This document shows positions 1 through 35,024 of a DNA stretch of 35,024 nt, piece by piece. Source of the stretch: an uncultured Clostridium sp. Lineage in GTDB: Bacteria > Bacillota > Clostridia > Clostridiales > Clostridiaceae. Location: positions 1-35,024 of the forward strand of contig CACZYK010000012.1 of NCBI GenBank assembly GCA_902785295.1. The letters run 5' to 3'. The notes under the pieces were generated by a model. That model saw nothing but the letters and a program-made list of their open reading frames with translations. It was not told the DNA's origin and searched no databases. Every line of letters starts with the position of its first letter. Within the stretch, counting starts at the first letter, position 1. A program made the translations under genes and the position numbers.

Positions 1-99
1 AAAGAGTCATAAACATTTTGTCCGATTATAGCAAGATTATTTCCTGCTGTTGCTACCAAGCCAACAGGCGATGCAATAGCACTCTTAAAAAAGTTTCCT
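1..99. repeat. Direct repeat of window ends (assembly overlap)
   Basis: These 99 bases are identical to the last 99 bases of the window (34926-35024). The repeat lies inside the coding sequence of the giant ejection protein, and the frame is continuous when the copies are merged. An exact 99-bp overlap is typical of a circular contig from a k-mer assembler. I therefore read it as proof of circularity or circular permutation, not as a biological terminal repeat. Confidence 0.95.
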
Positions 100-284: not shown

Positions 285-1757
285 CTATTTAATATAAACC
301 TTTTCACCGGTTTTAAACTTTTTATATTTCTTTCCTGTTCCTTCTTCTTCATATACTTGATATTCGTTAGATTGAACAGGTCGCATTTCATCTTTCTTCT
401 GTGCAACACTTCTTCCAACTAATATTCTTGATGCATCAGTTAGTATTGCACCAGTATCATTTTTAATCACAAAGTTATTATACACATCATTGACTATATT
501 TGCTAGTTTCTTTTTCTTTTCTTCGCCAATATATAACCAATTTGACTCATCAGGGTCTATGTTTGCACCTTTTAATCCTTTGTAAATCTGTGTATATAAT
601 CCCGCTTTTACAATACTATTATCAAGACTAACACCCGTATCTTTTTTGTATTTCTCTAATTTTTCATCAAGCATATTAAAAGCATCTTGTCTATTACTTG
701 AAATCATTTTTACAAACATATTATTTCTATGTTCTGTATCCATTTTATTCATTAAATTATCAGCAAACAATAAATTATATTTTCTAAAGGTTTTTTCATC
801 TACTGTGCCTCTAATATAATCTTCGTTTAATGTATCTATATAATTTAATGTTTCATCTATTGTTGCATTGAACTTCTTATCTTCAGTCTTTTCTTCTACA
901 AGTTGTTCAAGTTTCATCTTGCTAAGTTCATAAGCATCAGATATTTCAACTGCTTTGTTTTGTGTTTCTCCGTTCTTAACTGCCTTTTCTACATTTTCTG
1001 TATAAGTCTTTGAACTTGATTTTAATGTATCATAAGATTCTTTATCCATCAATTTATTCAAAGGAACACCGCCAAGTGTGAATTTACCATTTGCAATATT
1101 TTGATGTAGTTTATATTTTTCTTCTGCACTCAATCCTTTTGAATAGTCATTTAATGCATCTTGAAAAAGTCTATTTGTTTTGTATTGTAATGATTTCTTT
1201 TCACTTGCAGAGAGTAAATCCGAACTTTCTCCAGCCCTTCTTTGTTCCATACCTCTCATATAGTTTACAACATCATCAGGCGAATTAAATCCACCAAAAG
1301 CATTTATAAGAGTGTCTTTTGATAACTGATAACTATGTTCAAGTTCAACTTCTAATAATGCTTTGTTTTCTTTTCTCTGTGCTTGTGCAAAAGCAACATT
1401 TGATTTTCCAAGTATAGTTCTACTTTTTAATTCATAATCTGCCAAGAAGTCGCTTTTTACTTCATTATCTTCAATATTGTTTGCATAATTATCACGAATA
1501 TTGTTAAGTTCTTTTTCTAACTCTGTCGGATTGTTTCCATAGTTTTCATAAGCAAGTTGCATATCTGTTTGGCTTGCATTATTTAATTGAGTAGAATATC
1601 TTTTTCTTGCTTGCAACAATAACTCTTGAGCCTTATCTTCTTCCTGTTGTCCTTGTTTTTTTACTTGTGAACCAATTGAACCAACTTGTGATAATGTATC
1701 TTTTACATTACCCATTGCCGATTCTGTAAACATCTCTCTTTGATAAATATTTGCCAT
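285..1757 (-). CDS. Internal virion protein (T7 gp15-like position)
   Basis: This 490-aa hydrophilic, strongly helical protein is rich in Lys, Glu, Asn and Gln. It has no signal peptide or membrane segment. It lies between the 164-aa and 1913-aa genes, the slot held by the internal core protein gp15 in T7-like phages, which is ejected with the DNA and helps build the channel through the cell envelope. The N-terminal 60 residues look flexible and Gln-rich, and most of the rest has coiled-coil character. The start (MANIYQREMF) overlaps the previous stop as TAATG, with a GGGAG site upstream. I assign the role from gene order, length and composition, not from a catalytic motif. Confidence 0.7.
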   Translation of the reverse strand: MANIYQREMFTESAMGNVKDTLSQVGSIGSQVKKQGQQEEDKAQELLLQARKRYSTQLNNASQTDMQLAYENYGNNPTELEKELNNIRDNYANNIEDNEVKSDFLADYELKSRTILGKSNVAFAQAQRKENKALLEVELEHSYQLSKDTLINAFGGFNSPDDVVNYMRGMEQRRAGESSDLLSASEKKSLQYKTNRLFQDALNDYSKGLSAEEKYKLHQNIANGKFTLGGVPLNKLMDKESYDTLKSSSKTYTENVEKAVKNGETQNKAVEISDAYELSKMKLEQLVEEKTEDKKFNATIDETLNYIDTLNEDYIRGTVDEKTFRKYNLLFADNLMNKMDTEHRNNMFVKMISSNRQDAFNMLDEKLEKYKKDTGVSLDNSIVKAGLYTQIYKGLKGANIDPDESNWLYIGEEKKKKLANIVNDVYNNFVIKNDTGAILTDASRILVGRSVAQKKDEMRPVQSNEYQVYEEEGTGKKYKKFKTGEKVYIK

Positions 1758-2251
1758 TATTTATCTCCCTTAAAACCTATTTTTCCTGTGTCATATGAAT
1801 TTATACCTGAACCGATTGCACTCAAAGTTGAACTAATAAGTTCGCTTTTTGCTCTTGTCTTTTCAAGTGATGCTTTAATTCTTATAGCCTTTGCTTTCGC
1901 TTGTCCTGTTCTTTCTACATTTGCTGTATCTTCATTTAATGCTTTTGCAGACATCTCAAGATTTTTCTGTATTGAACCACTACTTGAACGACCACCCCTC
2001 ATTGTCGATGCAAAAAGCATATTTCCAGCGGAAGATAAATATCTTTCCCTAAGTGCATTTGCCTTTTCTCTTGCATTTAATTCGACTTGATTTGCTTCAA
2101 CTTCGCTTGCATAAGCATCTGTCTTTAATGTAGCATAATTTATATATCCACCCATTAAAGTTGAAAATGCCGATGCTCCGCTTTGTATTGCAGATTGTTT
2201 ATATAAATCCTGTGTTTTTGCATCTATTAAAGTCTGTGATTCGTTTGCCAT
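1757..2251 (-). CDS. Internal virion protein (T7 gp14-like)
   Basis: This 164-aa protein has a Gly/Ala/Ser-rich N-terminal half with a weakly hydrophobic stretch around residues 20-40. A long basic amphipathic helix follows (about 45-140), then a short Gly-Ser hydrophobic patch near 140-155. That layout and length fit the T7 gp14 class, the outermost ejected core protein that inserts in the outer membrane. It follows tail tube B and precedes the gp15-like gene, matching T7 order exactly. The ribosome site is GAGGGA. Its stop overlaps the next start by one base (TAATG), so translation is probably coupled. Confidence 0.7.
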   Translation of the reverse strand: MANESQTLIDAKTQDLYKQSAIQSGASAFSTLMGGYINYATLKTDAYASEVEANQVELNAREKANALRERYLSSAGNMLFASTMRGGRSSSGSIQKNLEMSAKALNEDTANVERTGQAKAKAIRIKASLEKTRAKSELISSTLSAIGSGINSYDTGKIGFKGDK

Positions 2252-2252
2252 A

Positions 2253-4784
2253 TTATCCCTCGTAATTTATATTTAATTCTATTGATAATATATCAAGGCT
2301 TTCTGTTCCTTCTATATTATATGTTATATCTTTGCCGTATAAAGTGCAAGCATAAAATTCTACTGGATGATAATTAGTCATATCATTTAATTGTTTTGTT
2401 TGTCCGCAGAAAATTATCTCTTTTCCTTTACACATTACAGTTGCTTTTGCAATTCTCTTTTTTACACTTCCTGTCTTATGATTTATAGATATTTGATTTC
2501 CTACTAATTTATATTTAACCGGATAACCAACATAAACAATTCCACTTTCTACTTCTACTCTTGCATCGCCGTTGTTATCAAATTTTCCATAGGCTCTTAA
2601 ATTTCCTACACCCTTATAGATAAATTCATCATTTTTCATAGAACTGTCGTGTATCATATAATCTGTTACTGTTAGTCTATGTCCGCTATCTCCTAAGTTT
2701 TCTGTATAATTTAATTTTTCAAGAAATGTCTTGCCTGCTATTTTTACAACCGCAAACATTACACCACCAACCGCACAAACTTGTTTATATTCTCCCTTTC
2801 TCTTGCAAACAGATGGTGCAAATATTTCATCTGATAATGATATTGTTATTGTCGATAATTGACCTGCAATATCTATTATATAAATTCTAGAAACAGGACT
2901 CTCTGATGAACCTTTTACTATATCCATATCTACAGTTTGATATTGTAGTATATTTGTTAATTTACTTAAATTTTCTGATTCGTAAGAGTTTACTGTATCA
3001 CTATAAACATAATTCATAAGTTTATGATTGCTTACATATAATACTTGTCCATCTAAAATTATAGGTCTTACTCTTTCATCTATACCGTTTTTAGTTGTAG
3101 GTATTACCTTAAATGAGTTAGGGGTAAAACTATTTTCAGGACTGCTTGCTTCATAATCGCTAGTAAATATATGTAATCCCCTATTAAATATTATATCATA
3201 AATAACCGCATTTGTATTCATTGTAAATGAGATTGAATCATTATCATAATTACCAGCATTTTTAAAATTATAATAATCGGCTATTCTTGATGCCCAAATA
3301 GTGTTTGGCTTTGTAGGTGTTCCAGCAAAGAATAATCTTTCGTTTGCTATACAACAACATCTAGGATATCCCTTTGATGCACTCCATACCGCTTCATAAC
3401 CACTCTCATAATTCCAACTTGAAAAAGAATCGGTGTTATAAAAAGGAATTATTGTATATCCGCTAACTTTTGTAGCACTTATATATTTTGTTACTCTTAA
3501 TCTTCCACCGTTTCCATCAATTACTTGTCCTTCATAATTTACATCAAAAACAGAACTTCCTGCTGTCAATGTAACAATACCTTCTGCTCTATCAGGTGTT
3601 AATGTTACTGTCTTTGGTGTTATTGTCGCATTTCCAAATAATTCTTGTGGTATGCTCTGCAATGATATTGAACTCCAAGCCCAATCATTGTCCGCTTGTC
3701 TTACTAATTGATGTGGCTCTAATTTTTCGTGTGTAAAAACTATTGTATCATCTTTATATGTCCATTTAATATTTTCTATTATTTCATCAGTTAATTCAAC
3801 CGCACTAACCGTTTCAATAAATTCAGGATTTCCATATACTAACTTGTAAATATCTATTCTACCTTTAATCAATACAAATAAATAATTTTCAATATTGTTA
3901 AACACAAAATCTACAAGTTTTACTTCTCCGACATCTTCTTCTGTTGCACTTTGTAAAATAACTATTTTATCAAGAACCAATCTTGATATTACATTACTAT
4001 CAACCGTTAATCTTATATATCTTGCACTTGCTATTGATGTTTGAAAATCTATTGCTGTTTCGCTTATTGTTGCATAATCTTCTCGTGTCCAAGTTATACC
4101 ATCAGAACTTATTTCTACATACATTCTTGTAGATATAGGCGTATGATTTGATTCTTTTAATTGAACCCTTATATCATCATATTGATATTGAGAAGAACTT
4201 GATATTTTTAATTGTCCACTTACAGAAGTCAACGAACCTGCACTATCTTTTGTATAAGTTAAAGTGTTTATCATTTGGTGTAGTGAACTATATAATACAG
4301 GAACTAATGAACCATTTACACCGACACCAGCATTTGTAAATGCTGTTGTAGTCGAATTAAAATTATAAACTCCAGCAGATTCTCTAGGTAATACAAGCCA
4401 TAAGTTAGGTTCAGTATAATCAAACTTAATTTGATTTACTTGAAATAAAAAGTCTGTTTTTTCTTCTCCCAAATCAAATTCAAGATATGTTGTTTGTCCA
4501 TCTGTTCCTGATGATATAAACCGTGTATCTGTTTTTAAATCTGCTACATTACCACCGATATTTGATGTGGCTGTATAATCTATTTCACTTGATGGACTAT
4601 ATGCTTTTATTTCTGTTATTCTATCTGTTGCTTCTCTTTTTGTTAAGCCACCAAATAAAGTAACATCAAAGTTTTTTATTTCACTTGCAGAAGAATCAAA
4701 TATTTCTAAATCGGTTCTTTCTTGCAAATCTTTTACAATCTGTCCTTTACTAAATTTTATTTTCTTCTGTAATGTGCTAGCCAT
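2253..4784 (-). CDS. Tail tubular protein B-like (T7 gp12 position)
   Basis: This 843-aa protein is rich in beta strands, Thr, Ser, Asn and aromatic residues, with little Ala or coiled coil. It is close to T7 gp12 (about 794 aa), which forms the tail nozzle below the gatekeeper ring. The opening (MASTLQKKIKFSKGQ) and the stretch about WSASKGYPRCCCIANERLFFAG in the middle (describing an arginine-cysteine turn before a blade-like repeat) are what I would expect for the beta-propeller nozzle family. It follows the 192-aa tail tube A gene with two bases between and precedes the gp14-like gene by one base. The ribosome site is AAGGG. Role is assigned from order, size and fold-like composition. Confidence 0.8.
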   Translation of the reverse strand: MASTLQKKIKFSKGQIVKDLQERTDLEIFDSSASEIKNFDVTLFGGLTKREATDRITEIKAYSPSSEIDYTATSNIGGNVADLKTDTRFISSGTDGQTTYLEFDLGEEKTDFLFQVNQIKFDYTEPNLWLVLPRESAGVYNFNSTTTAFTNAGVGVNGSLVPVLYSSLHQMINTLTYTKDSAGSLTSVSGQLKISSSSQYQYDDIRVQLKESNHTPISTRMYVEISSDGITWTREDYATISETAIDFQTSIASARYIRLTVDSNVISRLVLDKIVILQSATEEDVGEVKLVDFVFNNIENYLFVLIKGRIDIYKLVYGNPEFIETVSAVELTDEIIENIKWTYKDDTIVFTHEKLEPHQLVRQADNDWAWSSISLQSIPQELFGNATITPKTVTLTPDRAEGIVTLTAGSSVFDVNYEGQVIDGNGGRLRVTKYISATKVSGYTIIPFYNTDSFSSWNYESGYEAVWSASKGYPRCCCIANERLFFAGTPTKPNTIWASRIADYYNFKNAGNYDNDSISFTMNTNAVIYDIIFNRGLHIFTSDYEASSPENSFTPNSFKVIPTTKNGIDERVRPIILDGQVLYVSNHKLMNYVYSDTVNSYESENLSKLTNILQYQTVDMDIVKGSSESPVSRIYIIDIAGQLSTITISLSDEIFAPSVCKRKGEYKQVCAVGGVMFAVVKIAGKTFLEKLNYTENLGDSGHRLTVTDYMIHDSSMKNDEFIYKGVGNLRAYGKFDNNGDARVEVESGIVYVGYPVKYKLVGNQISINHKTGSVKKRIAKATVMCKGKEIIFCGQTKQLNDMTNYHPVEFYACTLYGKDITYNIEGTESLDILSIELNINYEG

Positions 4785-4786
4785 AG

Positions 4787-5365
4787 TTAAGCCCTTTCTT
4801 CAAGTATATTGTTCAAGTTTATGTGCTTTACTTTGCTCTGTCTAAAGTCTGTGTTCTTTGCAACTTCAAAAGCCCTTGCTCTATTCATTTCAAGTAATTG
4901 ATATAAATTATTATCTCCTGTTAAAATCGGACATAATTTAGATGATAATGTATATCTTAACAAGTCTATAAAGTATGCAGGCATTTCACTTTCAGATATT
5001 TTCTTTGTGTAATCTACCCACATCTCAGGAGAGTTTGAATATATTGATATTCCTTGTTGTTCATAATCGTGGATTTTATGTTCCATCTTTTCATCAGAAT
5101 ATCTTCCCTTTATATACAAACACTTTGCAGGCATTGTGTATTTATACTTAAATCTTCCAAATGGAACAAGTAATTCTTCAGGGTCATCTAATTTTGTTTT
5201 AAAAGTGCAAAAACTCCAATTATAACTTTGGAGAACAAGAGATACTATAAAATTATATTGATTGTTAATTGCTCTAACATCATTTTCATCCGAACTTACA
5301 AAATCAGGCATTTCTACTCTACCTAAATCTTGCAATGCTAAAAACTTTACTTCATCTATTCCCAT
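4787..5365 (-). CDS. Tail tubular protein A-like / head-tail adaptor (T7 gp11-like)
   Basis: I start this gene at the ATG at 5365 (MGIDEVKFLALQ), which has a GAGGTG ribosome site; an ATG 12 bases upstream has none. The resulting 192 aa almost equals T7 gp11 (196 aa), the dodecameric gatekeeper ring between portal and nozzle. The N-terminal helices, the segment about SYNWSFCTFKTKL near residues 45-60 and the following DPEELLVPFGRFKYKY-like strand region are typical of this family. It is the first gene after the capsid and its terminator, and it probably depends on read-through from the capsid promoter. Confidence 0.8.
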   Translation of the reverse strand: MGIDEVKFLALQDLGRVEMPDFVSSDENDVRAINNQYNFIVSLVLQSYNWSFCTFKTKLDDPEELLVPFGRFKYKYTMPAKCLYIKGRYSDEKMEHKIHDYEQQGISIYSNSPEMWVDYTKKISESEMPAYFIDLLRYTLSSKLCPILTGDNNLYQLLEMNRARAFEVAKNTDFRQSKVKHINLNNILEERA

Positions 5366-5391
5366 TATACACCTCATTGTTTTTTAAGAAA

Positions 5392-5460: not shown

Positions 5461-6297
5461 TTATTTTGCTGATAATACACCAACAACACCTTGATTGTCG
5501 ATAACTACTGCACCAGCATAGAATGAACCACCAACCATATATGAAAGTTTTTGTGGAACATATTCCATCTTTGTTGCAATATCTTTACCAAGTCCGAAAC
5601 CAACTGCTCTCTTGTGATAAATAAATCCAAGAACATCAGCATTAGAGTTTTCAAGTGGTAAACCACCTTCTGTTCTGTTTGCGATACAGATGAATTTCAT
5701 ACCCAAGAATGAACCGATTTCACCATTTACCAATGCTCTTACAGAATTATAATCTGCAGATGTAACTTGAGTTGTCTTTAATAAATCTTCAAGTTGTGTT
5801 GCACTGTGAATGAAGTATCTATCTTCTGTTGGAACACCTGCTTCGTCAAGTAATTTCTTACCAGCAAGCAATGTGTTGATTGACAATGCTGTTCCTGTTG
5901 TTCCAACTTGATGATTTGTTGAATCATAACCGCTAGACATAGCATCGATAATGATTTGGTCTTTTCTCAAACCAAGTGCATCACCTGCTACTTCTGCAAT
6001 TTCTTTGATTTCTGAGAAGTTGATTGCTGTCATTGTTACTTCATCAACATAATCGTATGCATCCCAACCTGATAATTCACACTTAACTTGTGTAAAGTTT
6101 GTATCCATAGGTGTTATATCAGCAAAAGCAGTATGAGAAGTTGCGATTCCCTTACCCTTTTTACGGAAGTAAATTTCTTTACCAACAACACCAGTTTTTG
6201 TATAAACAGTTCCTTGTAGGCTACTTACATTACCATATGCTCTTTTAACTTCAGCATCAAATGCAGATTGCCAAACATTACTTATATTTACAGACAT
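5461..6297 (-). CDS. Major capsid protein
   Basis: This 278-aa protein sits between the scaffold and tail tube genes and has its own consensus promoter and terminator. The open frame extends upstream to 6426, but the true start is the ATG at 6297 (MSVNISNVWQSAF), which has a strong AAGGAG site; the extra codons overlap the promoter and hairpins. The alternating helix and beta pattern, the central segment about ADVLGFIYHKRAVGFGLGKD and the C-terminal strand about YMVGGSFYAGAVVIDNQG are like HK97-fold capsid proteins of small podophages. It lacks the long N-terminal delta domain of siphophage capsids, in line with a separate scaffold gene. Confidence 0.85.
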   Translation of the reverse strand: MSVNISNVWQSAFDAEVKRAYGNVSSLQGTVYTKTGVVGKEIYFRKKGKGIATSHTAFADITPMDTNFTQVKCELSGWDAYDYVDEVTMTAINFSEIKEIAEVAGDALGLRKDQIIIDAMSSGYDSTNHQVGTTGTALSINTLLAGKKLLDEAGVPTEDRYFIHSATQLEDLLKTTQVTSADYNSVRALVNGEIGSFLGMKFICIANRTEGGLPLENSNADVLGFIYHKRAVGFGLGKDIATKMEYVPQKLSYMVGGSFYAGAVVIDNQGVVGVLSAK

Positions 6298-6370
6298 TTT
6301 CTTTCTCCTTTTTTGTCTTGTTAATATTATATGTAAGGTTTTTAAATAGGCTTTTTTCTGAAATTCGGGG

Positions 6371-6391
6371 ACATCAAAAGAACTTCGATGT
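6371..6391 (-). promoter_or_regulatory. Leader stem-loop of capsid mRNA
   Basis: In the minus RNA, ACAUCGAAG pairs with UUUUGAUGU around a UUC loop (two G-U pairs). It lies inside the roughly 130-nt untranslated leader of the capsid message, downstream of the nested promoter. No ribosome site is hidden in it, so mRNA stabilisation is the simplest guess. Confidence 0.35.
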
Positions 6392-6401
6392 TGAGCCCAA
6401 G

Positions 6402-6447
6402 AAAAAAGGTTCTCAAATCTTTTCACTTTCGATTATAAGAACCTTTT
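6402..6447 (-). terminator. Terminator upstream of capsid, with promoter inside
   Basis: A 10-bp stem (AAAAGGTTCT with AGAACCTTTT, 24-nt loop) ends in a run of six T on the minus strand. It would stop transcripts arriving from the terminase-portal-scaffold genes. The left arm fills part of the -35/-10 spacer of the capsid promoter and the loop starts with the -10 box, so transcripts starting at that promoter lack the left arm and cannot form the hairpin. Confidence 0.7.
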
Positions 6448-7526: not shown

Positions 7527-9113
7527 TTAAATATTCTCTCCTGCATTTGCTTTTCCCATTTCTTTTGCATTTGCTACTGCTACATCATCAATCATTGCTT
7601 GTTGTTGTTGCTGTGCCATTGCTTCTGCTTCTTGTTGTTGTAATGCAATTATTTCATCTTCTCCACGAATAAAGTCTTTTCTTACTCCCATTTTCTCTAA
7701 GAGATAAGGAACCATTTTATTCATATCTATTACTTTTGTTGTAAATTGCATTGTAGGGTCAAGTTGTGCTAGTAAACCAATAGCCTGTAAAGTCTTTTGA
7801 ACTTCTTCATTTGCTTGTTGATTTGCTAACTGTGTATTTACTTTAATTCGATAATTAAAACCGTTAAAACTCTTTACATCAAAGTTTTTTGGGTCAACAT
7901 ATCCGAATGTCTGTAATACTTCAACTATTCTTTGAATAAGTCTATACTGGAAGTCAACAAAAGCACCAAAAGTATTTGCAAGAGTATTATCTAATTCTTG
8001 TATTCTTTCTGCTACTTCGGTTGCTGTCATCTTCCTGTTAGGGTCGTTTGGGATGCTTGTTGCAAGTAAACCTCTGCGAACATTCATCTCAAGTTGAATC
8101 ATATTATATTGTTGCAAGTCTGTTTTCATATCACCTACATCAATCTTTCTTATAGGTGGATTTGAATTTTCATTTGCACGAACTGGATTTACTGCACCAC
8201 CATTGACTTCAAGATTTGCAAAATCACAATCTTCGGTTGCAGTAAAGGCTGGTATTGTAAAGGCTAAACACTCAATAGAGTATTTTTTAATCTTGTTAAG
8301 CATTTTAAAATCTGCTATAACTTTTAAACCTTGTCCTCTACCGTATGTTTCATTTGATAGTTTTCCCCATCTTAAATCAACAAAAGGACTTGTCTTTGTC
8401 TTGTTTTCATAGGCTATCTTTTCTGCATTTGAATCAAATACAACATAATTCCATACTTTCTTATCATAATCGTAATAGGTTGCTTCAATCAAATCTACAA
8501 GTTTATCTGCTTCGTTTTCTTCATAACTCCACTTTGCACCTTTCCAAGTATGCTCAATAAGTTTATTCTTTACTTTCAATGTTCTAAAGAATGTATCTGC
8601 TTTACCATCTACACCATCAACGATTGTTATATCACTAAAAGGAATACTTGTAAAACTCAAAGGATTATCAAAAGTTCCTTCCTTAACAAGCAATACTGCT
8701 GTTCCTGCTATAAGTTCATAACAAAACTTTGTTGCTTCCATATCAAAGTTAGATATGTTTTTATATGTGTTAAGCAACTGAGCCATTTTAGAAAGTTCTT
8801 TATTGACTGCATCTTTTTTGCTTTCGTTCTGTTTTGTATCAAATAAGAATCCTGCTTCAAGGTCTATCCAGTCCATATTTACAGGAAACAATAAACCTTG
8901 AGTTCTTTGAACAAAGCCTTCACAACTTTCTTGCATTGCAGATGAATAAACTTCATCCATATTTTTTTGACCGACACAACCTTCTTTATTATACTGTATA
9001 TTTGAATATCTATCAGGCATACCGTATTTATACACATCTTCATACAAAGTCTTAAATTTGTATTTTTCTGTCTGTGCTGTGTCAAACTTTCTTCTTAATT
9101 CTTTTATATCCAT
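7527..9113 (-). CDS. Portal / head-tail connector protein (T7 gp8-like)
   Basis: This 528-aa protein is close to T7 gp8 (536 aa), the dodecameric ring at the packaging vertex. The N-terminus has the family's helix followed by a Tyr/Pro-rich motif (about YEDVYKYGMPDRYSN, residues 24-38) and a segment around residues 60-85 (SCEGFVQRTQGLLFP, then MDWIDLEAG). The C-terminal 60 residues are Gln- and Ala-rich, as in other connectors. It lies after the terminases and a 90-aa protein and before the scaffold. The start has an AGGA site. Confidence 0.88.
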   Translation of the reverse strand: MDIKELRRKFDTAQTEKYKFKTLYEDVYKYGMPDRYSNIQYNKEGCVGQKNMDEVYSSAMQESCEGFVQRTQGLLFPVNMDWIDLEAGFLFDTKQNESKKDAVNKELSKMAQLLNTYKNISNFDMEATKFCYELIAGTAVLLVKEGTFDNPLSFTSIPFSDITIVDGVDGKADTFFRTLKVKNKLIEHTWKGAKWSYEENEADKLVDLIEATYYDYDKKVWNYVVFDSNAEKIAYENKTKTSPFVDLRWGKLSNETYGRGQGLKVIADFKMLNKIKKYSIECLAFTIPAFTATEDCDFANLEVNGGAVNPVRANENSNPPIRKIDVGDMKTDLQQYNMIQLEMNVRRGLLATSIPNDPNRKMTATEVAERIQELDNTLANTFGAFVDFQYRLIQRIVEVLQTFGYVDPKNFDVKSFNGFNYRIKVNTQLANQQANEEVQKTLQAIGLLAQLDPTMQFTTKVIDMNKMVPYLLEKMGVRKDFIRGEDEIIALQQQEAEAMAQQQQQAMIDDVAVANAKEMGKANAGENI

Positions 9114-9746: not shown

Positions 9747-10096
9747 TATTTCTTTGCCTCAATAAATGTAAATATAGAAGAACATACAAGAGTTCTTTCT
9801 TCAAACATAGATAGTTTAAATCTTACAATCTTTCTTTTGTCGTGCGATAATCTTTGTCTTACTTCACTAACTCCGAATCTAATATCTTTATACTTTTCTA
9901 ATTTATTATGAAATTTAGTATTATATATTGTTCCAGTTACCCAATATGTTTTAACAGGTATATTTCTCTTAATCCACTCATAAGCCTTCCTGTCCATTGT
10001 AAAAAGTTCATACCAACCAGCACCACTACCATTTTCATTATATCTGTATAAGTATGTTACTGTTTTAAATAACCATTTCAAAAACTTCTCTTTCAT
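9746..10096 (-). CDS. Unknown 116-aa protein after terminase
   Basis: The ATG at 10096 overlaps the large terminase stop as ATGA and has a GGAGGAG site, so it is preferred over the ATG at 10114. The 116-aa product is basic and rich in aromatic residues, with an amphipathic N-terminal helix (MKEKFLKWLF) and a strand-rich middle (about YWVTGTIYNTKFHNK). It is coupled to the terminase gene on one side and the GNAT-like gene on the other. I do not recognise the family. Confidence 0.75.
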   Translation of the reverse strand: MKEKFLKWLFKTVTYLYRYNENGSGAGWYELFTMDRKAYEWIKRNIPVKTYWVTGTIYNTKFHNKLEKYKDIRFGVSEVRQRLSHDKRKIVRFKLSMFEERTLVCSSIFTFIEAKK

Positions 10097-11424
10097 AGTT
10101 TTACTCCTCCCCATTTTTTTGTTTGTCTTAATCCAACCTTATTATTCCTGTTTACATCTCTCTCAATAAAAGGAATAATTCGGAAAGCATCTGCACCGTG
10201 TGAACTCCAATCGTGTTCAGGTGTGTCTTTAAATTTTCTTCTCTTTTCATCATAGTCTTTATGATAATGCTTCAAGGCTGTATATCCATCTTTTGCATCT
10301 TCATTAAATTCACACATAGGTATAATTCCCCTTGTGGCTTGTATATCTGCTATAACATCGTTTGTTCGTGGAACTCTTTCTATTCTGTTAAGTCCTAAGC
10401 CTAGCAACATACCTTCAATAGTCTGTGTTTGCTCTTGTGATGTATGCTGTCTATGATTTGCATCGTGTGGTAAATAGTGTGCTCTGTAAGAATCTCCCCA
10501 AGGTTTATTCAATACTACATTTGCATAATGTCCTAATCCGAATCCTGTATTTTCATAATAGTCTATTACACGAATTGAACCATCTATAAATTGGACAAAC
10601 CATATTGCCATTGCATCATCCAATCCTAAATCCCAAGCGGTATAAACTGGATGTCTAGGGTCATAAGGGTATTTTCCATACTTTGCTCTTTGTAATACAT
10701 CTGCATAATATGCACCGTATATAGCTCCTTGCCAAGAACAATAATATTCCTGTTGTATAATTTCCTCAGGCTTTCCTCTTTGTCTTTCTTCTTGCAAATC
10801 TTCGGGATTTACTACTCCTGTATCTTCAATAGTCAATAAACTTGTTAAATACTTCTCATTACTATTCAAGAAGTCAAACATATCTTTTGCATAGCCTTCG
10901 CCTCGTGGGGTAGAATTAAATAATACCCAGCCTTTAGTTTCCTTAAGCATCGGTTCTATTACCAAGTCATACAAATTCGGCTTTTGTAGTGCCAACTCAG
11001 ATATTACACAACCTTTAATACCAGCACCAACCAAAGCATCATAATTATCACCACCAAGAAAAGTTATTATACTTCCTGCTTTGCTAGGGTCGTTAGGGTG
11101 TCTTAAGGTTAATTTCATTTCAGAATTGTTTTTTGCATATACAAGTTCTTCAGGGAATAAGTCAATATATCTTCTTCCATCCGATGTTATACCTTCCCAA
11201 ATACTTCTGCGAACCTGATTCTGTTGTGGAAGAATATACCAATAATTACCGACTTCCATTAAAGCCCTTGCAAACATAACTTGCAAACAAAATATATCTT
11301 TTCCTGCTCTACGATGCCAAACAAGAAAAGCTTTTTTAATATTCTCTTTAAAAAGTCTTGACCAAACCTTGATTTGATAAGGTCTTAAGTCTATTGCTGG
11401 TAAGTTAATCTTCTTCGTTTCCAT
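10093..11424 (-). CDS. terL: Terminase large subunit
   Basis: This 443-aa DNA-packaging motor has an ATPase and a nuclease domain. Visible motifs are a Walker A-like VWHRRAGKD at 35-43, a Walker B-like GCVISE at 138-143 (the acidic pair is SE instead of DE, which I recall as common in this podophage branch), and an STPRG coupling motif at 171-175. The RNase H-like nuclease shows AWDLGLDDAM with D265, D321 in YLPHDA, and DWSSHGADAF near the end with D405 and D412. It overlaps the small subunit by 20 bases. Its type is headful or site-specific, which cannot be told from sequence alone; the circular contig suits headful packaging with permuted ends. Confidence 0.93.
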   Translation of the reverse strand: METKKINLPAIDLRPYQIKVWSRLFKENIKKAFLVWHRRAGKDIFCLQVMFARALMEVGNYWYILPQQNQVRRSIWEGITSDGRRYIDLFPEELVYAKNNSEMKLTLRHPNDPSKAGSIITFLGGDNYDALVGAGIKGCVISELALQKPNLYDLVIEPMLKETKGWVLFNSTPRGEGYAKDMFDFLNSNEKYLTSLLTIEDTGVVNPEDLQEERQRGKPEEIIQQEYYCSWQGAIYGAYYADVLQRAKYGKYPYDPRHPVYTAWDLGLDDAMAIWFVQFIDGSIRVIDYYENTGFGLGHYANVVLNKPWGDSYRAHYLPHDANHRQHTSQEQTQTIEGMLLGLGLNRIERVPRTNDVIADIQATRGIIPMCEFNEDAKDGYTALKHYHKDYDEKRRKFKDTPEHDWSSHGADAFRIIPFIERDVNRNNKVGLRQTKKWGGVKL

Positions 11425-21887: not shown

Positions 21888-22766
21888 TTATACTTTTATT
21901 ATTTTACTTGTCAAATATTTTCTTATATATTCAACTTGAACATCTGTTAATTCAGATTCTCTCATTGTTTCCAGTATCTTTTTTGCTGTTTCTTCTTTAT
22001 TTGCAAGTCGCATAAGTTCGTTCATAATATTTACCAATACTAATGAACCTGTTTTAATTCTTGCTAAAATCATTGTATTCTTAATGAAAATATTATCCTT
22101 GATAATTTCCTTATCCTCTTCTGTTTCCCCTACTGTAGACTTATCTAAAGCGATTTTAACCTTATTTTCAGGCTTATCCCATACTGCTCTTATCTTTTGT
22201 TTCCAATTCAATACAGGTTTTCCACTTGCATCGTGCCAATCTGCAACATCATAATAATTAAATATCTTTTCTCCATCAAGACTAAGTGATTTACAATAAT
22301 CTATTACTTCTTGCTTAGCAGGAATAGTCATTTGCTTTACAGCACGAGATACAACTTTTTTCTTTTCTTTATATATTTCTTTTTCTTTTTTATTTATATT
22401 ATTATTATATATTATTATTGGGTCAAAATTTTTGACTACCCCCTGTAAAGTTTTTTGACTACCTTCTTCCATTTTTGACTGGTGGTCAAATTTTTTGACT
22501 ACCCCATATTTATTAAATGTTATATTGTTTTTTGTTTCTTGATATTTTATTATTAAATTTTGTTCTTCCAAAGATTTTAAAGTATTTATTACTGTTTGTC
22601 TTGATGATGATAACCATTCGGTAATATATGATATGCTTCCTTCAAACTTACTTTCTTCATCTTGACTAAAGCCATAAATCAAAGCATACACTAAAAGTTC
22701 ATTTCCCTTTAGATGCAATTCGTTTATCATCCAGCCTTGAATATTTATATAATTATTATTATCCAT
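21888..22766 (-). CDS. Replication initiator with winged helix (phage DnaD/O-like)
   Basis: I start at ATG 22766 (MDNNNYINIQGWMIN) behind GGGAG; the frame is open to 22814, but that part lies in the leader hairpin. The 292-aa protein has a winged-helix DNA-binding domain (about 12-76, with GSISYITEWLSSSRQTVINT as the recognition region), a linker coded by the iteron and AT-rich DNA, and a C-terminal part (about QEVIDYCKSLSLDGEKIF then NYYDVADWHD, and NWKQKIRAVW near 180-190) typical of phage replisome organisers that bind origin DNA and recruit host DnaB/DnaC-like loaders. No helicase or polymerase gene is visible, so it probably starts host-dependent replication. Confidence 0.72.
   Translation of the reverse strand: MDNNNYINIQGWMINELHLKGNELLVYALIYGFSQDEESKFEGSISYITEWLSSSRQTVINTLKSLEEQNLIIKYQETKNNITFNKYGVVKKFDHQSKMEEGSQKTLQGVVKNFDPIIIYNNNINKKEKEIYKEKKKVVSRAVKQMTIPAKQEVIDYCKSLSLDGEKIFNYYDVADWHDASGKPVLNWKQKIRAVWDKPENKVKIALDKSTVGETEEDKEIIKDNIFIKNTMILARIKTGSLVLVNIMNELMRLANKEETAKKILETMRESELTDVQVEYIRKYLTSKIIKV
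22375..22425. other. AT-rich tract, candidate DNA-unwinding element
   Basis: About 50 bases of almost pure A/T (TTATTATATATTATTATTG-like on the plus strand) lie inside the initiator gene, directly beside the iteron repeats. This pairing is how iteron origins place the unwinding element. It codes for an Asn/Ile/Lys-rich linker (YNNNINKKEKEIYK), so DNA function and flexible protein linker can share it. Confidence 0.55.
22429..22503. repeat. Four iteron-like repeats inside initiator gene (putative ori)
   Basis: TTTTTGACTACC occurs at 22429-22440, 22452-22463 and 22492-22503, with a variant TTTTTGACTGGT at 22472-22483. Spacings are 23, 20 and 20 bases, near two helical turns. GTCAAAA on the left of the first (22422) and GTCAAA before the fourth (22485) make palindromic sites. 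The repeats fall in three different codon phases, so they are not a protein-repeat by-product. With the adjacent AT-rich tract this is a likely replication origin, as in lambda O. Confidence 0.7.
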
Positions 22767-22814
22767 ATTTTCTCTCCCTATAAGAGCGGGAGAAAGTATA
22801 GGGCAATCTCCCAT
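22767..22814 (-). promoter_or_regulatory. Leader of replication transcript with small stem-loop
   Basis: Between promoter P22870 and the initiator ATG is a leader containing GGGAGA and TCTCCC arms (about 22788-22813) that form a 6-bp stem. A short frame (ATG 22824 to TAG 22779, 15 codons) also spans it, but its ribosome spacing is poor. It may control initiator translation; evidence is weak. Confidence 0.35.
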
Positions 22815-29455: not shown

Positions 29456-32400
29456 TCATCTTATTAGTGCCTTTATCTGTTTTTCTGTTCTTGATATAGG
29501 TGCTCCTGTTGTCGCCTCAATAAATGGTAACATTATTTCAGTATAATCAAAAGCATCTTTCTTCTTCTTTTGTAATTTCTTGACTGCTTGAACCATTTCC
29601 CCAAAGGCTGGTGTTTGCATATCATATACTTTATTTCCTTGCATTGTATCAACAAAAGCACTTGCAACATCACTAACACCACCAACAGGATTAAAGAATT
29701 GCATTATTAAAGCCTTGATTGTTTCATCAAGATAACTCTTGTCTTTATCATCAGGTGCTGTGATATTATACATAAGTGCCGTTACCATACCTAATAATAC
29801 AGGTTGAATTACTGCATAATTGAATAATGTTCTTGTTGCAACATCTTTGCTAATATCTCCATTCATATATCCGACAATAGTATCATTTATTTTTCTCATA
29901 TACTGTATAGGAGTATTCTTAAAGTTGCTTATCAATCTATAAGTCCTATTATGCTGGAATCTTGATTGATTAGCCATAGTCCTTGACTGCTGTGCTCTTT
30001 CTGTTTCAGTTATCCAAGTTTTAACCGCTTCTTCTTCTGACATACCACTATTGATAAGTTGTTTTAATCTAGGATAACCACCAACCATAATAGCACTTAT
30101 ATCTCCTGCTCTTGTCATCCAAGTAATACCATCTATTAAACCGTTTTTAATATTTGCAGGAATTACTTTTGGAGTATTACCAGCATCTTCTTTAACACGA
30201 CTCATTGCATCATTATAACCAGTCTTATATCTTTGTTTTAGATAATCACCAGCATATTGTTCCATAAACTTTTTTGCTTGTTTTGGATTCTTAAAGTATT
30301 CGAATATTCCTTTAGCCCAGTTTTTATAACCCATTTCTGTTGCATAGTTTGTCGCAGACAATAACTGTTTTACAAATACTGTCGGAGCAATACCACCTAT
30401 CTTTGCAGATACCCAGTTATTAAGAATCTTATCATACATACCACTTTGTAAATCTTTCTTTCTATATGCAAAGTATTCCGAATAACTTAAATTATCTACT
30501 AATTCTTTCAAGTCTTTATAAACTTTATCATCAAATTTATTTGTGATTTCGTTTTTAACTCTCATTGAATTTATTGTTTCAGACAATTCTTTATATGGAA
30601 GTGCCATTTCTGTTAAATAGAAAGAACTCTCAATATGATTTTGGAATTTGCTATATGCATCCATAGGCTTTACAATAACATTTCCCTTCTTTCTTTCTTT
30701 TAATTGACTAGGTGTTTCACTAGGCTTTTTAAATGTATCAAAAGCATCTGTTTCGTTTGTTGTTCTTTCAGATGTTCGTGGCCAGTAGTTATCTATTTTA
30801 GGTAAATCTGTTTGATATGCTTTCACAAATACTTTGTTTGTTTCTTCATATCTTTCATTTACATACTTTTGTAAACTGTCGCCAAACTCTTTTTCTTCAT
30901 CTGTCAACATATCTATAAGTTCAGTTATTTGTGCTTCACCATAGATATTATCCATAGCCTTTTTTGTATCAGCATTTTTATAATCGTTATACAAATCTAT
31001 AATATCCATTTTAGTCAAGTCATACTTGCCTTGTCCTAATTTTTCATCATAATAGGAAAGTGTAGCAACTTTCTTTCTCATTTCCTGTATTTTATTAAGC
31101 AAGTCGCCCATTTTCTTAAATCCGAATATATCCATAGATTCTTTGGCTTGTGCTTCATAAAAGTTGAAAGTCTTTATATTCTTCTGTGTTTCAAGATTTT
31201 CAAAGTTATACTTTTCTGCAACATCTTTACCGGCAACGAATCTTAACATAGAATTTAATCCGTTTACAAATCTTGCAACTCCTTTTTCAAATCCACCTGT
31301 TACTTTTCTTGTTCTAACTCCGTGAATCATTTCATCTTTGTTTTCTTTTCTATCCAAGTAATCAAGGAACTCTTTTTCATCTTTTGCTTGTTTTGATTGC
31401 AACTTTGTATATTTAATTGTATCTAATAATTCGTTCATTAAATCAACAGAAGTATCATCTTTACCGTTTGCTTTATATGATAAATAAAGTTTTTCTAATT
31501 GTTCATCATAGGTTAAATCTTCTTTACCCATAAATTTAGATAATTCGATTTCTGCTTGTTCTTGATTCATTTTTGAATAATTTCTCAAGTTGTTAAACAA
31601 TTTATTATCTTCATATAAATACTTTTGATTCTTTACATCTTTTGCTTTTGTTTTCTTAAGTTCTTTTTCAATAGCATTTGATAAGATGTCTTTTTGTTCT
31701 TTTTCATAATACTCTTTTGCTTTTTCTGTTATTTCGTTCAAAGTCTTATCAAGCATATATTCGGTGTTTGCTTGCTTTACTTTAGTTATAAGTTTTGCTT
31801 TATCTTCACTATCAATCTTTTGTGCTCTGATAAAGTCGACAACCTTATCTCTCATTTCCTGCATATTTTCTTTTGTTGACTTAATAACTTCCTTGTTAAG
31901 TTTTTTATATTCCTTTTCAAGTTCTTTTATCTTGTTATCAAGTTGCTTTACTTCGCTCTTTGATACGGCTGTTATATCAGATTTCTTTAATTCTTGTATC
32001 TGTTGCATTACTTCTTCTGCATCTACACCCAAAGAATCTAATAATTGATTTGCTTCTTCTACTGCTTGCAAAGTGTTTTCTCTCATTGCTAAGGCTTGTG
32101 CATCTTTCTCAGAATAAACATTTTCAGCATTTTCAAGTAAGTTCATTGCTCTATCAAATTCGCTACCGACTTGTGTATCTGTTTGTGCTTCTTCTGATGC
32201 CATAAATCCATTTGATTTTAAGAACTCTACAAGTTGATTCTCATCTTTTATCTTTCCTTTTTCTGTAAATAAACGACTATATTTTTTATCTTGTTCACCC
32301 ATAAGTTCTTTTAAATCAAGACTTTCTGCAAGTGTATTACTAATTCCACCAGCACTAACTAATGCTTGTCTTAAATTCTTTGGTGCTCTAGGAATACGGC

Positions 32401-35024
32401 GATTCTTTGCATCTAGCAAACGATATACTTCATCAATATTGATATTTTCTATATTGACCGCTTTACCTGCTTTAATATCTTTTACAAGTTGTCTTACTTG
32501 TTCTCTTGCCTTTGCCACACTTTCAACATCAATCTCTTTTAAAGAATAAAGACTATCAAAGAAATCAACAACATCTTGACTAAGTTCTTCTTCTTGAACT
32601 AATCCTTTTTTCTTTAAGTTTTCCCATACAGACATAGCCCATTGTCTAAATTCTTCAAAATATTTTCTAAGTCCTGTTGATGGTGCTTCGTGTTGTGCCA
32701 TATAGTTTATAGACATCTTTGCAATTTCTTCTTGATAATATTCTTCGTTCTTTAATTTTTCTGCATTTTCAACAGTAGGCTCTAAATTAAAGTGTTTGAA
32801 TAAAGGATTTAATACATCAAGTTTATTATTCTTAATTGCTAAATCTATTCTGTAAATAGAGAATAAATGATTTAATTCGTGGACAACTGTATCTCTATTA
32901 CCTGTTTTAAGTATATTTACAAGTTTATTTGCTACATCTACATAACCACGAATATCTTGCTGTTCTTTTTGGAATAAAACATTACCAAGTTCATCAAACT
33001 TCTTTCTAAGAACTTTTACATCTTCAGGATTAAAGATTACAAAACATCTTCCATCAATTCCCCCTTCATAAGTAATACCTTTAATACCGTATTCGTTTAA
33101 TAATTCTGATGCTTTCTTTTGTGGATTTTCTTCAACACCAAATTGTTTATTTATATCTTGGAAATAATGAACCAAAGAACTATATATTGCTTCTCCTGTT
33201 GAATATTGAGGTTCTTGTTCTATCATTTCTTTTATAATTGCAGTAGTATCACCAAATCCAGCATCTTCGTGTTCTTGAATCATTTTTTTCAAGGCATTTT
33301 TAACAAAATCAGATTGCTCACTATAAGGTTTTTGTTCATCAAGTAAATAAGGATTTTCAGGAATATCTACTTCGTGGACTTGTCCAACTTTTTTACTTTT
33401 ATCAAGATATTTATCTTCAATACTTCTAAACCAATCCACATCTTTCTGTGTTATCATACCTTCTGATAACATATCTTTTATATCTTCATCAGTATGTCTT
33501 ATCAATAAACTTTCTATTATACTTGCTTTACCATACTCATTTTTATCTATAAGAGATGTATATAAGTCATTTAACTTATCTTCATAATATTTATTGCTTT
33601 CACTTTCAGTAAAAGTATATCTGTATCTTTCTGCTATATTTTTATCAAGAGCATAATAAAGTCCATATCCGTGCATCATTGCACCTTCACCACTTCCTAT
33701 TGCTTCTAAACTAGGCCTATCATAATCTACCCTTGAACCAGCATAAGCACTTTGGAACAATACTTGTCCTGTTGTCTTATCTACAAGTTCGCCTGCTTCA
33801 TTTACATAAGTATTATCATTATCTTCAAAAGCCAATCTATCCATAGGTTCTGATATTGCTTCTGATTCACTGCTAATTCTTAAGTTTTCAAAATCTTTTA
33901 ACTGGTCTGATACAGACTTTCCAAATGTTTCTTCATTTGCTAACAAGAAAGCCTCCATCATAGCAACAGTTCTATCTTTATTTTCTTTATTTAAGTTTGA
34001 ATTATTTTCAACTATATCAACTATCTTGTTATGATTTTGTTCTTCTGTTTGTCTTTTACCAGCGATTATTTCTTCCATAATCTCTTTGGCTCTTGTCGTT
34101 ACATTTGAATAATTAAAATCATTACCATATTTCAATCTGTCTGATTGTTCGTTCAAGGTATCTATTATTGCTTGTCGCATTTCTTCATCATTATTTAATG
34201 AATCTGTTGCACTTTTAACAGCATCATCAAATTTTATATCTGCTCTATTTACAACCTTATCAACGGCTAGTAATTCTTGCTTATTTAATTTTCTTCCTGC
34301 TTTTTCTTGTATACCATCTATAATTTGTTTCTTAAGGTTTGTATTTGCTAATCTGTTTATAGATGAACCAGCACCACCAGTTATACCACCACTAATACCA
34401 CCATATACACCTGCTTCAAGTGCATCGGTAATTATAGAAGTCCAATCTTTCTTTGTTATATCTTTCATTATCAAATCGGTTGATAAGTTTTGGCTCATTT
34501 CTTCAATAAATTCTGTTTTAAAAGAATTTGTGATTGACTTTAAAACTGTATTATGTGTTATGTTTTTAACAAGATTTTGTAATCCCCAGTTTTCTAATTT
34601 TGCTTCAAAGTATCCCGCTAAACTACCACGACCTACCGATTCGGTTGCACTTCTTCCACTTTCTCTTGCTAGTGCCATATTTTCCCCAGCGGTATTTACA
34701 CCAAACAAGGCTATCATTAAAGGACTTGCCCCCATTGCATTAAATCCAAGTGATGACAAACTTTGTCCTACACCACTTCCGATTTTACCCGATATTCTAT
34801 CTAAATCTGCACCAAAGAATTCGCTTATATTTTCTGCTATCTCTTGATTTTGTATATTCAAGTTTTCTACAATTTGTTTATTTCTTTTAAGTTCATCTTC
34901 TGTTAAAAACTTAAATCTCTCTCCCAAAGAGTCATAAACATTTTGTCCGATTATAGCAAGATTATTTCCTGCTGTTGCTACCAAGCCAACAGGCGATGCA
35001 ATAGCACTCTTAAAAAAGTTTCCT
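29456..35024 (-). CDS. Giant ejected polyvalent protein: ART-like and zincin domains
   Basis: This part holds residues about 58-1913 of a 1913-aa protein that begins at 272 across the circular junction. Domains as I read them: a helical N-terminal region with hydrophobic stretches (about 147-171 and 262-281); an ADP-ribosyltransferase-like domain (about 481-732) with QSAYAGSRVDYDR, IGSGEGAMMHGYGLYYA and, near its end, DGRCFVIFNPEDV; a zinc-metallopeptidase-like domain (about 750-880) with HELNH at 773-777 and a downstream EEIAKMSINYMAQ; long coiled coils (about 1030-1200); and a C-terminal LPD38-like region (about 1729-1788, TERAQQSR ... LISNFKNTP) before a hydrophobic helix near 1794-1812. 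It fills the T7 gp16 slot, so it is probably ejected into the cell. No lytic transglycosylase is seen. Confidence 0.85.
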   Translation of the reverse strand, partial: GNFFKSAIASPVGLVATAGNNLAIIGQNVYDSLGERFKFLTEDELKRNKQIVENLNIQNQEIAENISEFFGADLDRISGKIGSGVGQSLSSLGFNAMGASPLMIALFGVNTAGENMALARESGRSATESVGRGSLAGYFEAKLENWGLQNLVKNITHNTVLKSITNSFKTEFIEEMSQNLSTDLIMKDITKKDWTSIITDALEAGVYGGISGGITGGAGSSINRLANTNLKKQIIDGIQEKAGRKLNKQELLAVDKVVNRADIKFDDAVKSATDSLNNDEEMRQAIIDTLNEQSDRLKYGNDFNYSNVTTRAKEIMEEIIAGKRQTEEQNHNKIVDIVENNSNLNKENKDRTVAMMEAFLLANEETFGKSVSDQLKDFENLRISSESEAISEPMDRLAFEDNDNTYVNEAGELVDKTTGQVLFQSAYAGSRVDYDRPSLEAIGSGEGAMMHGYGLYYALDKNIAERYRYTFTESESNKYYEDKLNDLYTSLIDKNEYGKASIIESLLIRHTDEDIKDMLSEGMITQKDVDWFRSIEDKYLDKSKKVGQVHEVDIPENPYLLDEQKPYSEQSDFVKNALKKMIQEHEDAGFGDTTAIIKEMIEQEPQYSTGEAIYSSLVHYFQDINKQFGVEENPQKKASELLNEYGIKGITYEGGIDGRCFVIFNPEDVKVLRKKFDELGNVLFQKEQQDIRGYVDVANKLVNILKTGNRDTVVHELNHLFSIYRIDLAIKNNKLDVLNPLFKHFNLEPTVENAEKLKNEEYYQEEIAKMSINYMAQHEAPSTGLRKYFEEFRQWAMSVWENLKKKGLVQEEELSQDVVDFFDSLYSLKEIDVESVAKAREQVRQLVKDIKAGKAVNIENINIDEVYRLLDAKNRRIPRAPKNLRQALVSAGGISNTLAESLDLKELMGEQDKKYSRLFTEKGKIKDENQLVEFLKSNGFMASEEAQTDTQVGSEFDRAMNLLENAENVYSEKDAQALAMRENTLQAVEEANQLLDSLGVDAEEVMQQIQELKKSDITAVSKSEVKQLDNKIKELEKEYKKLNKEVIKSTKENMQEMRDKVVDFIRAQKIDSEDKAKLITKVKQANTEYMLDKTLNEITEKAKEYYEKEQKDILSNAIEKELKKTKAKDVKNQKYLYEDNKLFNNLRNYSKMNQEQAEIELSKFMGKEDLTYDEQLEKLYLSYKANGKDDTSVDLMNELLDTIKYTKLQSKQAKDEKEFLDYLDRKENKDEMIHGVRTRKVTGGFEKGVARFVNGLNSMLRFVAGKDVAEKYNFENLETQKNIKTFNFYEAQAKESMDIFGFKKMGDLLNKIQEMRKKVATLSYYDEKLGQGKYDLTKMDIIDLYNDYKNADTKKAMDNIYGEAQITELIDMLTDEEKEFGDSLQKYVNERYEETNKVFVKAYQTDLPKIDNYWPRTSERTTNETDAFDTFKKPSETPSQLKERKKGNVIVKPMDAYSKFQNHIESSFYLTEMALPYKELSETINSMRVKNEITNKFDDKVYKDLKELVDNLSYSEYFAYRKKDLQSGMYDKILNNWVSAKIGGIAPTVFVKQLLSATNYATEMGYKNWAKGIFEYFKNPKQAKKFMEQYAGDYLKQRYKTGYNDAMSRVKEDAGNTPKVIPANIKNGLIDGITWMTRAGDISAIMVGGYPRLKQLINSGMSEEEAVKTWITETERAQQSRTMANQSRFQHNRTYRLISNFKNTPIQYMRKINDTIVGYMNGDISKDVATRTLFNYAVIQPVLLGMVTALMYNITAPDDKDKSYLDETIKALIMQFFNPVGGVSDVASAFVDTMQGNKVYDMQTPAFGEMVQAVKKLQKKKKDAFDYTEIMLPFIEATTGAPISRTEKQIKALIR
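34926..35024. repeat. Direct repeat of window ends, second copy
   Basis: Second copy of the 99-base end overlap, identical to 1-99. Removing one copy gives a 34,925-bp circle and restores one uninterrupted gene across the junction. Confidence 0.95.

Follow-up and report, generated by a model that had tools for sequence, protein, structure and literature searches.

An uncultured Clostridium sp. assembly (GCA_902785295.1) includes a contig, CACZYK010000012.1, that is most likely a complete phage genome and whose T7 gp16-like slot encodes a 1913-amino-acid polyvalent-type protein. The whole stretch analyzed, 35,024 nucleotides, is referred to as the window. The protein carries a domain that is homologous to the ADP-ribosyltransferases (ARTs) of phage polyvalent proteins and is predicted to share their fold, but in which the strand-1 His is replaced by Ala within a fixed sequence signature. 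Comparison with related loci (designated by L numbers) indicates that the segment bearing this signature has been exchanged with its His-bearing counterpart. The features of the protein are as follows.

33002..33766, minus strand: ART-fold domain, residues 478-732 (profile match, structural model, and fold searches)
33740..33742, minus strand: Ala486, replacing the strand-1 His (His in 74, Ala in 18, Thr in 1, and Arg in 1 of 94 aligned rows)
33656..33658, minus strand: Tyr514, the retained strand-2 Tyr (Tyr in 93 of 94 rows)
33053..33055, minus strand: Asp715, a candidate catalytic acid in the loop that precedes strand 5 (Asp in 18 of 18 Ala rows; weak AcrIF11 alignment)
33029..33031, minus strand: Asn723, at the Asp-rich strand-5 column (Asp in 63 of 94 rows)
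33611..33754, minus strand: N-half segment, residues 482-529 (QSAYAGSRVDYDRPSLEAIGSGEGAMMHGYGLYYAL...), exchanged with the His form in relatives (pairwise, tree, and upstream comparisons)
32528..32980, minus strand: zincin-like module adjoining the ART domain (HELNH and conserved flank only)
29780..31027, minus strand: conserved C-terminal region, residues 1391-1806, with no assigned function (alignment of relatives)
29456..34925, minus strand: most of the gp16-slot gene, which crosses the contig end
1..272, minus strand: 5' end of the gp16-slot gene, which starts with the ATG at 272 and runs through the 99-base terminal overlap

Homology and predicted fold of the ART domain

The motifs that led to the original prediction of an ART-like domain lie where it had placed them (residues 481-516 and 710-727, in full-length numbering) in the translated open reading frame (ORF): FQSAYAGS at residues 481-488 (window 33757-33734, minus strand), GSGEGAMMHGYGLYYA at residues 501-516 (33697-33650), YEGG at residues 710-713, and CFVIFNPEDV at residues 718-727 (33046-33017). 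The proposed homology to polyvalent ARTs held up. A canonical-ART profile (53 rows, realigned without the window row) matched the stretch with 149 bits and an E value of 2.4e-45 and matched 0 of 200 shuffles of the protein, and profile-profile comparison of the window domain with canonical ARTs by hhalign gave a probability of 99.9 and an E value of 6e-32. The Pfam ART-PolyVal model (PF18760) did not match the window domain row, whereas it matched 64 of the 94 rows of the domain alignment at E values of 1e-3 or below. This alignment comprises the window row and 93 of 102 selected relatives; the nine omitted were the longest and some more that were long or partial. Partial domains, domains longer than 430 amino acids, and four phage-record loci had already been excluded at selection.

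Structure prediction returned the expected fold. The AlphaFold2 (AF2) model built from the 94-row alignment reached a predicted local distance difference test score (pLDDT) of 87.1 and a predicted template modeling score (pTM) of 0.78, and was used in place of a model from a 13-row alignment in which the mean pLDDT of the ART core was only 60. The model predicts a split beta-sheet ART fold; its best Foldseek match in the PDB was AcrIF11 (6kyf; E value of 0.028, probability of 0.94), and its best VIA match was 9k3a_B, a protein of the cyanophage A4 pre-ejectosome. Sequence searches of the PDB gave nothing believable, the weak PARP14 rows on the correct segment having E values of about 0.6, and a PADLOC search with 13 domain rows gave no match. 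The domain is classed as an ART-fold relative of ART-PolyVal that lies outside the His-Tyr-Asp (H-Y-D) clade.

Active-site residues and the Ala signature

Iyer et al. 2017 (PMC5512222) define polyvalent ARTs by a strand-1 His, a strand-2 Tyr, and a strand-5 Asp. The AYAGS motif of the window had been read as a usual ART hallmark, which it is not, since 74 of the 94 aligned rows have His where the window has none. Loss of the catalytic residues from all homologs, an outcome that the original prediction had set against itself, is not found either, the His being kept in those 74 rows; near relatives that retain it are L016, L018, L021, L124, and L140.

All 18 Ala rows share the context A-[GA]-S-R-[VT]-D-Y-[DNE]-x-P-[SA]. 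Counted as distinct N-halves, of which there are 148, the position is His in 124, Ala in 19, Thr in 2, Arg in 2, and unresolved in 1. All 19 Ala N-halves retain the Tyr; the R-V-D-Y signature is absent from a single one, which belongs to the multi-ART protein L126/L022. The Asp-rich column at the end of strand 5 (Asp in 63, Asn in 23, Ser in 5, Ala in 1, and a gap in 2 of 94 rows) is Asn in 15 and Asp in 3 of the Ala rows. In the loop before strand 5, the Asp corresponding to Asp715 is present in 18 of 18 Ala rows versus 26 of 74 His rows. The acids required for AcrIF11 activity are located in the same loop (PMC12421852; position from the published sequence), and for this reason Asp715 may be the catalytic acid, although the AcrIF11 acids align adjacent to Asp715 rather than onto it.

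Other variants were seen among the relatives. Two more ARTs without the His, in L144 and L152, have Thr instead (AYTGS) and appear intermediate between the His and Ala forms. The multi-ART protein L022/L126 (IMGVR_UViG_3300028591_003015) is at least 2320 amino acids long and contains about seven tandem ART-like units, represented by one PARP match and by six Pfam ART-PolyVal stretches, for which the whole protein has an E value of 1e-40; one unit has Ala for His in a different context. The Ala form is also found in L162 to L167, on contigs assigned by binning to uncultured Alphaproteobacteria, with titles that mention "Lapin" and the rumen, reticulum, and colon of roe deer, and to Elusimicrobium.

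Constraint on and exchange of the N-half segment

Among the 18 Ala rows (153 pairs), the N-half segment (45 codons) has an amino acid identity of 0.84, an uncorrected proportion of synonymous differences (pS) of 0.82, and a ratio of nonsynonymous to synonymous proportions (pN/pS) of 0.17, compared with 0.50, 0.74 (also uncorrected), and 0.49 for the C-half (GQVHEVD onward); the strand 4-5 motif of the C-half alone has an identity of 0.75 and a pN/pS of 0.22. Because some Ala rows had been retrieved by N-half patterns, which biases the set toward N-half identity, the count was repeated on the 10 rows obtained from C-half patterns, the window included, with identity and pN/pS values of 0.86 and 0.18 for the N-half and 0.50 and 0.52 for the C-half. 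A 16-row count without L166 and L167 gave the same result. Synonymous divergence is high, so that the N-half identity is due to selection and not to recent spread, and the pattern is the opposite of that expected of a decaying site.

The same segment differs sharply between proteins that are otherwise close. The Ala form L165 agrees with the His form L021 in 80% of the C-half and 46% of the N-half; for the Ala form L010 and the His form L140 the corresponding values are 72% and 42%. L011 has an N-half and motifs identical to those of L010, and its similarity to L140 returns upstream, where NQIKSTSNRGTFDI.EDNIYYQ is common to both directly before the segment; in this pair the segment was thus replaced as a block. 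A quick C-half tree was built from the 39 rows that carry Cys in the strand-5 column; many of its forks are weak and some of its end branches long. On this tree the Ala form needs a minimum of six changes, at least three of which are forced by the starred branches, and a tree with all Ala rows together was rejected (C-half approximately unbiased test, P = 0.0011). The 18 Ala rows fall inside a set of 19 with one His row (L140) in the whole-domain tree (FastTree support of 0.98) and inside a set of 23 with five His rows when the signature columns are removed. Together, the pairwise and tree comparisons show that His and Ala N-halves were repeatedly exchanged as a block on the same C-half lineages.

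The gp16-slot protein and the phage genome

Window positions 1-99 are identical to 34926-35024. Because the same 99 bases occur at both ends of the window, which spans one entire contig of a 3.2-Mb bin, the phage genome is most likely complete, with 34,925 bases in circular or circularly permuted form. For the same reason the gp16-slot ORF runs over the contig junction to an ATG at 272, preceded by GGGAG. The ORF is longer than the 32555-34925 originally given and ends at 29456. Searches of the bin for the phage found no convincing spacer-like or prophage match, only short matches of 71 to 88%, and searches of the bin for 16S rRNA and PF00562 (rpoB) matched neither. PHROG scans took in 10 window proteins, 3 of which had no match, and together with gene order identified the following.

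285..1757, minus strand: gp15-slot protein, 490 amino acids (gene order; relatives compared)
1757..2251, minus strand: gp14-like internal virion protein (phrog_418, E value of 2e-4)
2253..4784, minus strand: tail tubular protein B (phrog_376, E value of 4e-56)
4787..5377, minus strand: tail tubular protein A (phrog_394, E value of 3e-25)
5461..6426, minus strand: major head protein (phrog_3437)
7527..9113, minus strand: portal (head-tail adaptor) (phrog_332)
10093..11424, minus strand: terminase large subunit (phrog_2)
21888-22814: replication-initiation/DnaD-like protein (phrog_6969, phrog_270, phrog_186)

Past the gp14-like gene, the reading order is the 490-amino-acid gp15-slot protein (no family match), the 1913-amino-acid protein, a 103-amino-acid ORF, and a 606-amino-acid protein in the fiber place. 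This is the tube B-14-15-16-fiber order of T7 (12-13-14-15-16-17), and by gene order the slot of the 1913-amino-acid protein is T7 gp16-like, as had been proposed. Among 27 compared loci, which include near copies and many of which are partial, a tube B relative was present in 11 and a gp14-like relative in 6. The window terminase precedes the portal, as in A-4L, whereas the T7 terminase lies at the far end of the genome.

The protein has the polyvalent trait of being very large and encoded among virion genes. A block at residues 473-890 is shared with relatives; of 17 compared, all matched the ART domain, 15 with a match reaching residue 885 or further, and several also share the C-terminal region at about residues 1391-1806. 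HELNH occupies residues 773-777 (32867-32881), and an HExxH motif follows the C motif in all 19 signature proteins that extend that far (20 proteins, one truncated; L010/L011 and L017/L023 are near copies), at a spacing of 35 to 51 residues in 15 and 204 to 239 in 4. A Pfam scan of the window protein gave no zincin match, and of the M78/DUF6782 matches located in relatives, only the weak M78 match of L015 (E value of 0.007) falls on the ART-side HExxH. Neither an LPD domain nor a lysozyme family was matched in the window protein. Of 18 proteins scanned, counting the window protein, 4 carried LPD23 and 3 carried LPD3; other domains of polyvalent type in the scanned relatives were ParB, PBECR2, acetyltransferase, methyltransferase, and Nudix.

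Comparison with known systems

ART-PolyVal/Tox-ART-HYD2 (PF18760), as described in PMC5512222, resembles the window domain in whole-domain homology and the strand-2 Tyr, and its polyvalent proteins are likewise large, located beside virion genes, and provided with a zincin-like motif. The window domain differs in its strand-1 Ala and new signature, in Asn at the strand-5 Asp column, and in the missing Pfam match. The same source gives a podovirus example, Roseovarius Plymouth podovirus 1, and PMC9503650 reports ARTs in only 3% of sipho- and podoviruses. T4 Alt is an ART injected with the DNA, but it belongs to the Arg-Ser-Glu (R-S-E) clade and is not a polyvalent protein (PMC5512222). In AcrIF11, QGTCYMI aligns with DGRCFVI of the window and the acids lie in the preceding loop; unlike the window protein, it is small and stand-alone and keeps the His, and its D146/E147 align beside Asp715.

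The A-4L genome encodes a 1717-amino-acid protein, ORF27, after the tube and internal-protein genes, and from slot, length, and residue range we infer that 9k3a_B is this protein. Residues 1261-1640 of ORF27 read YHGT, GSGTYFS, and DGDTTLVINPDAV, so that another podovirus, A-4L, has a His-bearing ART-like domain in its gp16 slot, apparently seen inside a virion. The A4 protein thus resembles the window protein in its slot after tube B and internal proteins and in the ART-like fold of its C-terminal part, and the match bears on ejection. ORF27 differs in keeping YHGT and in having no HExxH, and its sequence match to the ART alignment covers only 34 columns with a probability of 23%.

Proposed function and alternatives

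Polyvalent-protein ARTs are predicted to act at the first moments of infection, and zincins of these proteins have been proposed to process the polypeptide (Iyer et al. 2017, PMC5512222). The explanation that we favor, though at somewhat less than even odds, is a polyvalent-type ejection protein in the gp16 slot in which an ART-fold effector domain with a His-less, rewired pocket, accompanied by a zincin-like motif, acts on the host. The 1913-amino-acid protein would be packaged in the virion and enter the cell with the DNA, and the zincin would cut the polypeptide and release the ART domain. With its pocket rebuilt on Tyr514, Asp715, and the new Arg489, the domain might still bind NAD or a similar nucleotide, and it would act early in infection on a host target, with a target or chemistry unlike that of the His form. 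Recombination would let phages alternate between the two forms, which is what host countermeasures against either form would lead one to expect.

Several observations weigh against this explanation. In this ART clade the His in question binds NAD, and diphtheria toxin was at least 70-fold less active once it had been replaced (PMC7955679); an AcrIF11 H20A/Y46A double mutant was without ADP-ribosylation (PMC12421852). Asn723 differs from the commonest residue at its column, Asp, and the AcrIF11 alignment behind Asp715 spans 26 columns with an hhalign probability of 11.6% and a pairwise E value of 0.0026; in global mode the alignment failed. Foldseek against the PDB gave no match at an E value of 1e-3 or better. 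The pairing of ART and zincin is not strict, as the motif is more than 200 residues away in some relatives. Comparison by hhalign found no similarity of the C-terminal region or the zincin stretch, the two regions compared, to T7 gp16 (a single T7 sequence) or to A-4L ORF27; T7 gp15 did not match the C-terminal region either.

Nearly as likely as this effector function is a pseudo-ART: NAD chemistry would be gone, and the domain would act as a binding module, for instance for a protein of the host, for an ADP-ribosylated target, or for a further ejection protein, with the signature as the binding face. It is placed so close because known members bind NAD with the His that is missing here, and proteins that lack it elsewhere are regarded as likely pseudoenzymes. 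This is the hypothesis for one eukaryotic ART-like family without the His, in which the site may yet prove atypical or migrated (PMC7955679). Loss of both the strand-1 His and the strand-5 Asp fits such a module, as does the second, His-type ART-like unit upstream of the Ala-type unit in some proteins, at about residues 540-680 in L010/L011, 1124 in L012, 1271 in L015, 853 in L113, and 1468 in L162 (based on Pfam in L015 and L012 and on weaker N-half matches in L010, L011, L113, L162, L165, and L167). Against a binding module speak the single ART unit of the window protein, in which no second one was found upstream, the conservation of the pocket segment far beyond that of the C-half, and the retention of the Tyr and Asp715 throughout the Ala forms. 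Somewhat less probable, and on the doubtful side, is a lineage of naturally His-less ARTs that has an active-site chemistry or a target of its own, its pocket segment passing among podoviruses as an exchangeable block and alternating with the His form in the same ejected protein, in an arms race over the active site of an injected effector.

An ejectosome scaffold role for the ART fold without any effector function seems improbable. The ART-like fold in a solved virion pre-ejectosome (9k3a_B) speaks for it, but a scaffold alone would not need so conserved a pocket segment, nor would it account for a segment that has switched between two types of pocket within one slot or for homologous rows that are mostly recognizable as ART-PolyVal (64 of 94). 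The ordinary active H-Y-D ADP-ribosyltransferase originally proposed agrees with the homology and the predicted fold, yet it is very improbable: the His and the strand-5 Asp are replaced, and the coordinated signature occurs in 18 rows, not in one odd sequence. With both residues substituted and the Pfam model unmatched, ADP-ribosylation of host targets is unsupported in the form in which it was put forward.

Polyvalent-protein ARTs, including those of podoviruses, have been published (PMC5512222 and PMC9503650), and the PDB already includes an ejectosome protein with an ART-like fold. As far as the literature searched shows, the His-less signature form and its block exchange with the His form are new; open-licence titles and abstract beginnings yielded nothing on His-less polyvalent ARTs, which is no proof of absence. 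Motif-based annotation of domains of this kind as ADP-ribosyltransferases can claim more than is known of them. The natural His/Ala pairs on matched C-halves (L140/L011 and L021/L165) make the role of this residue, and of the exchange, directly testable.
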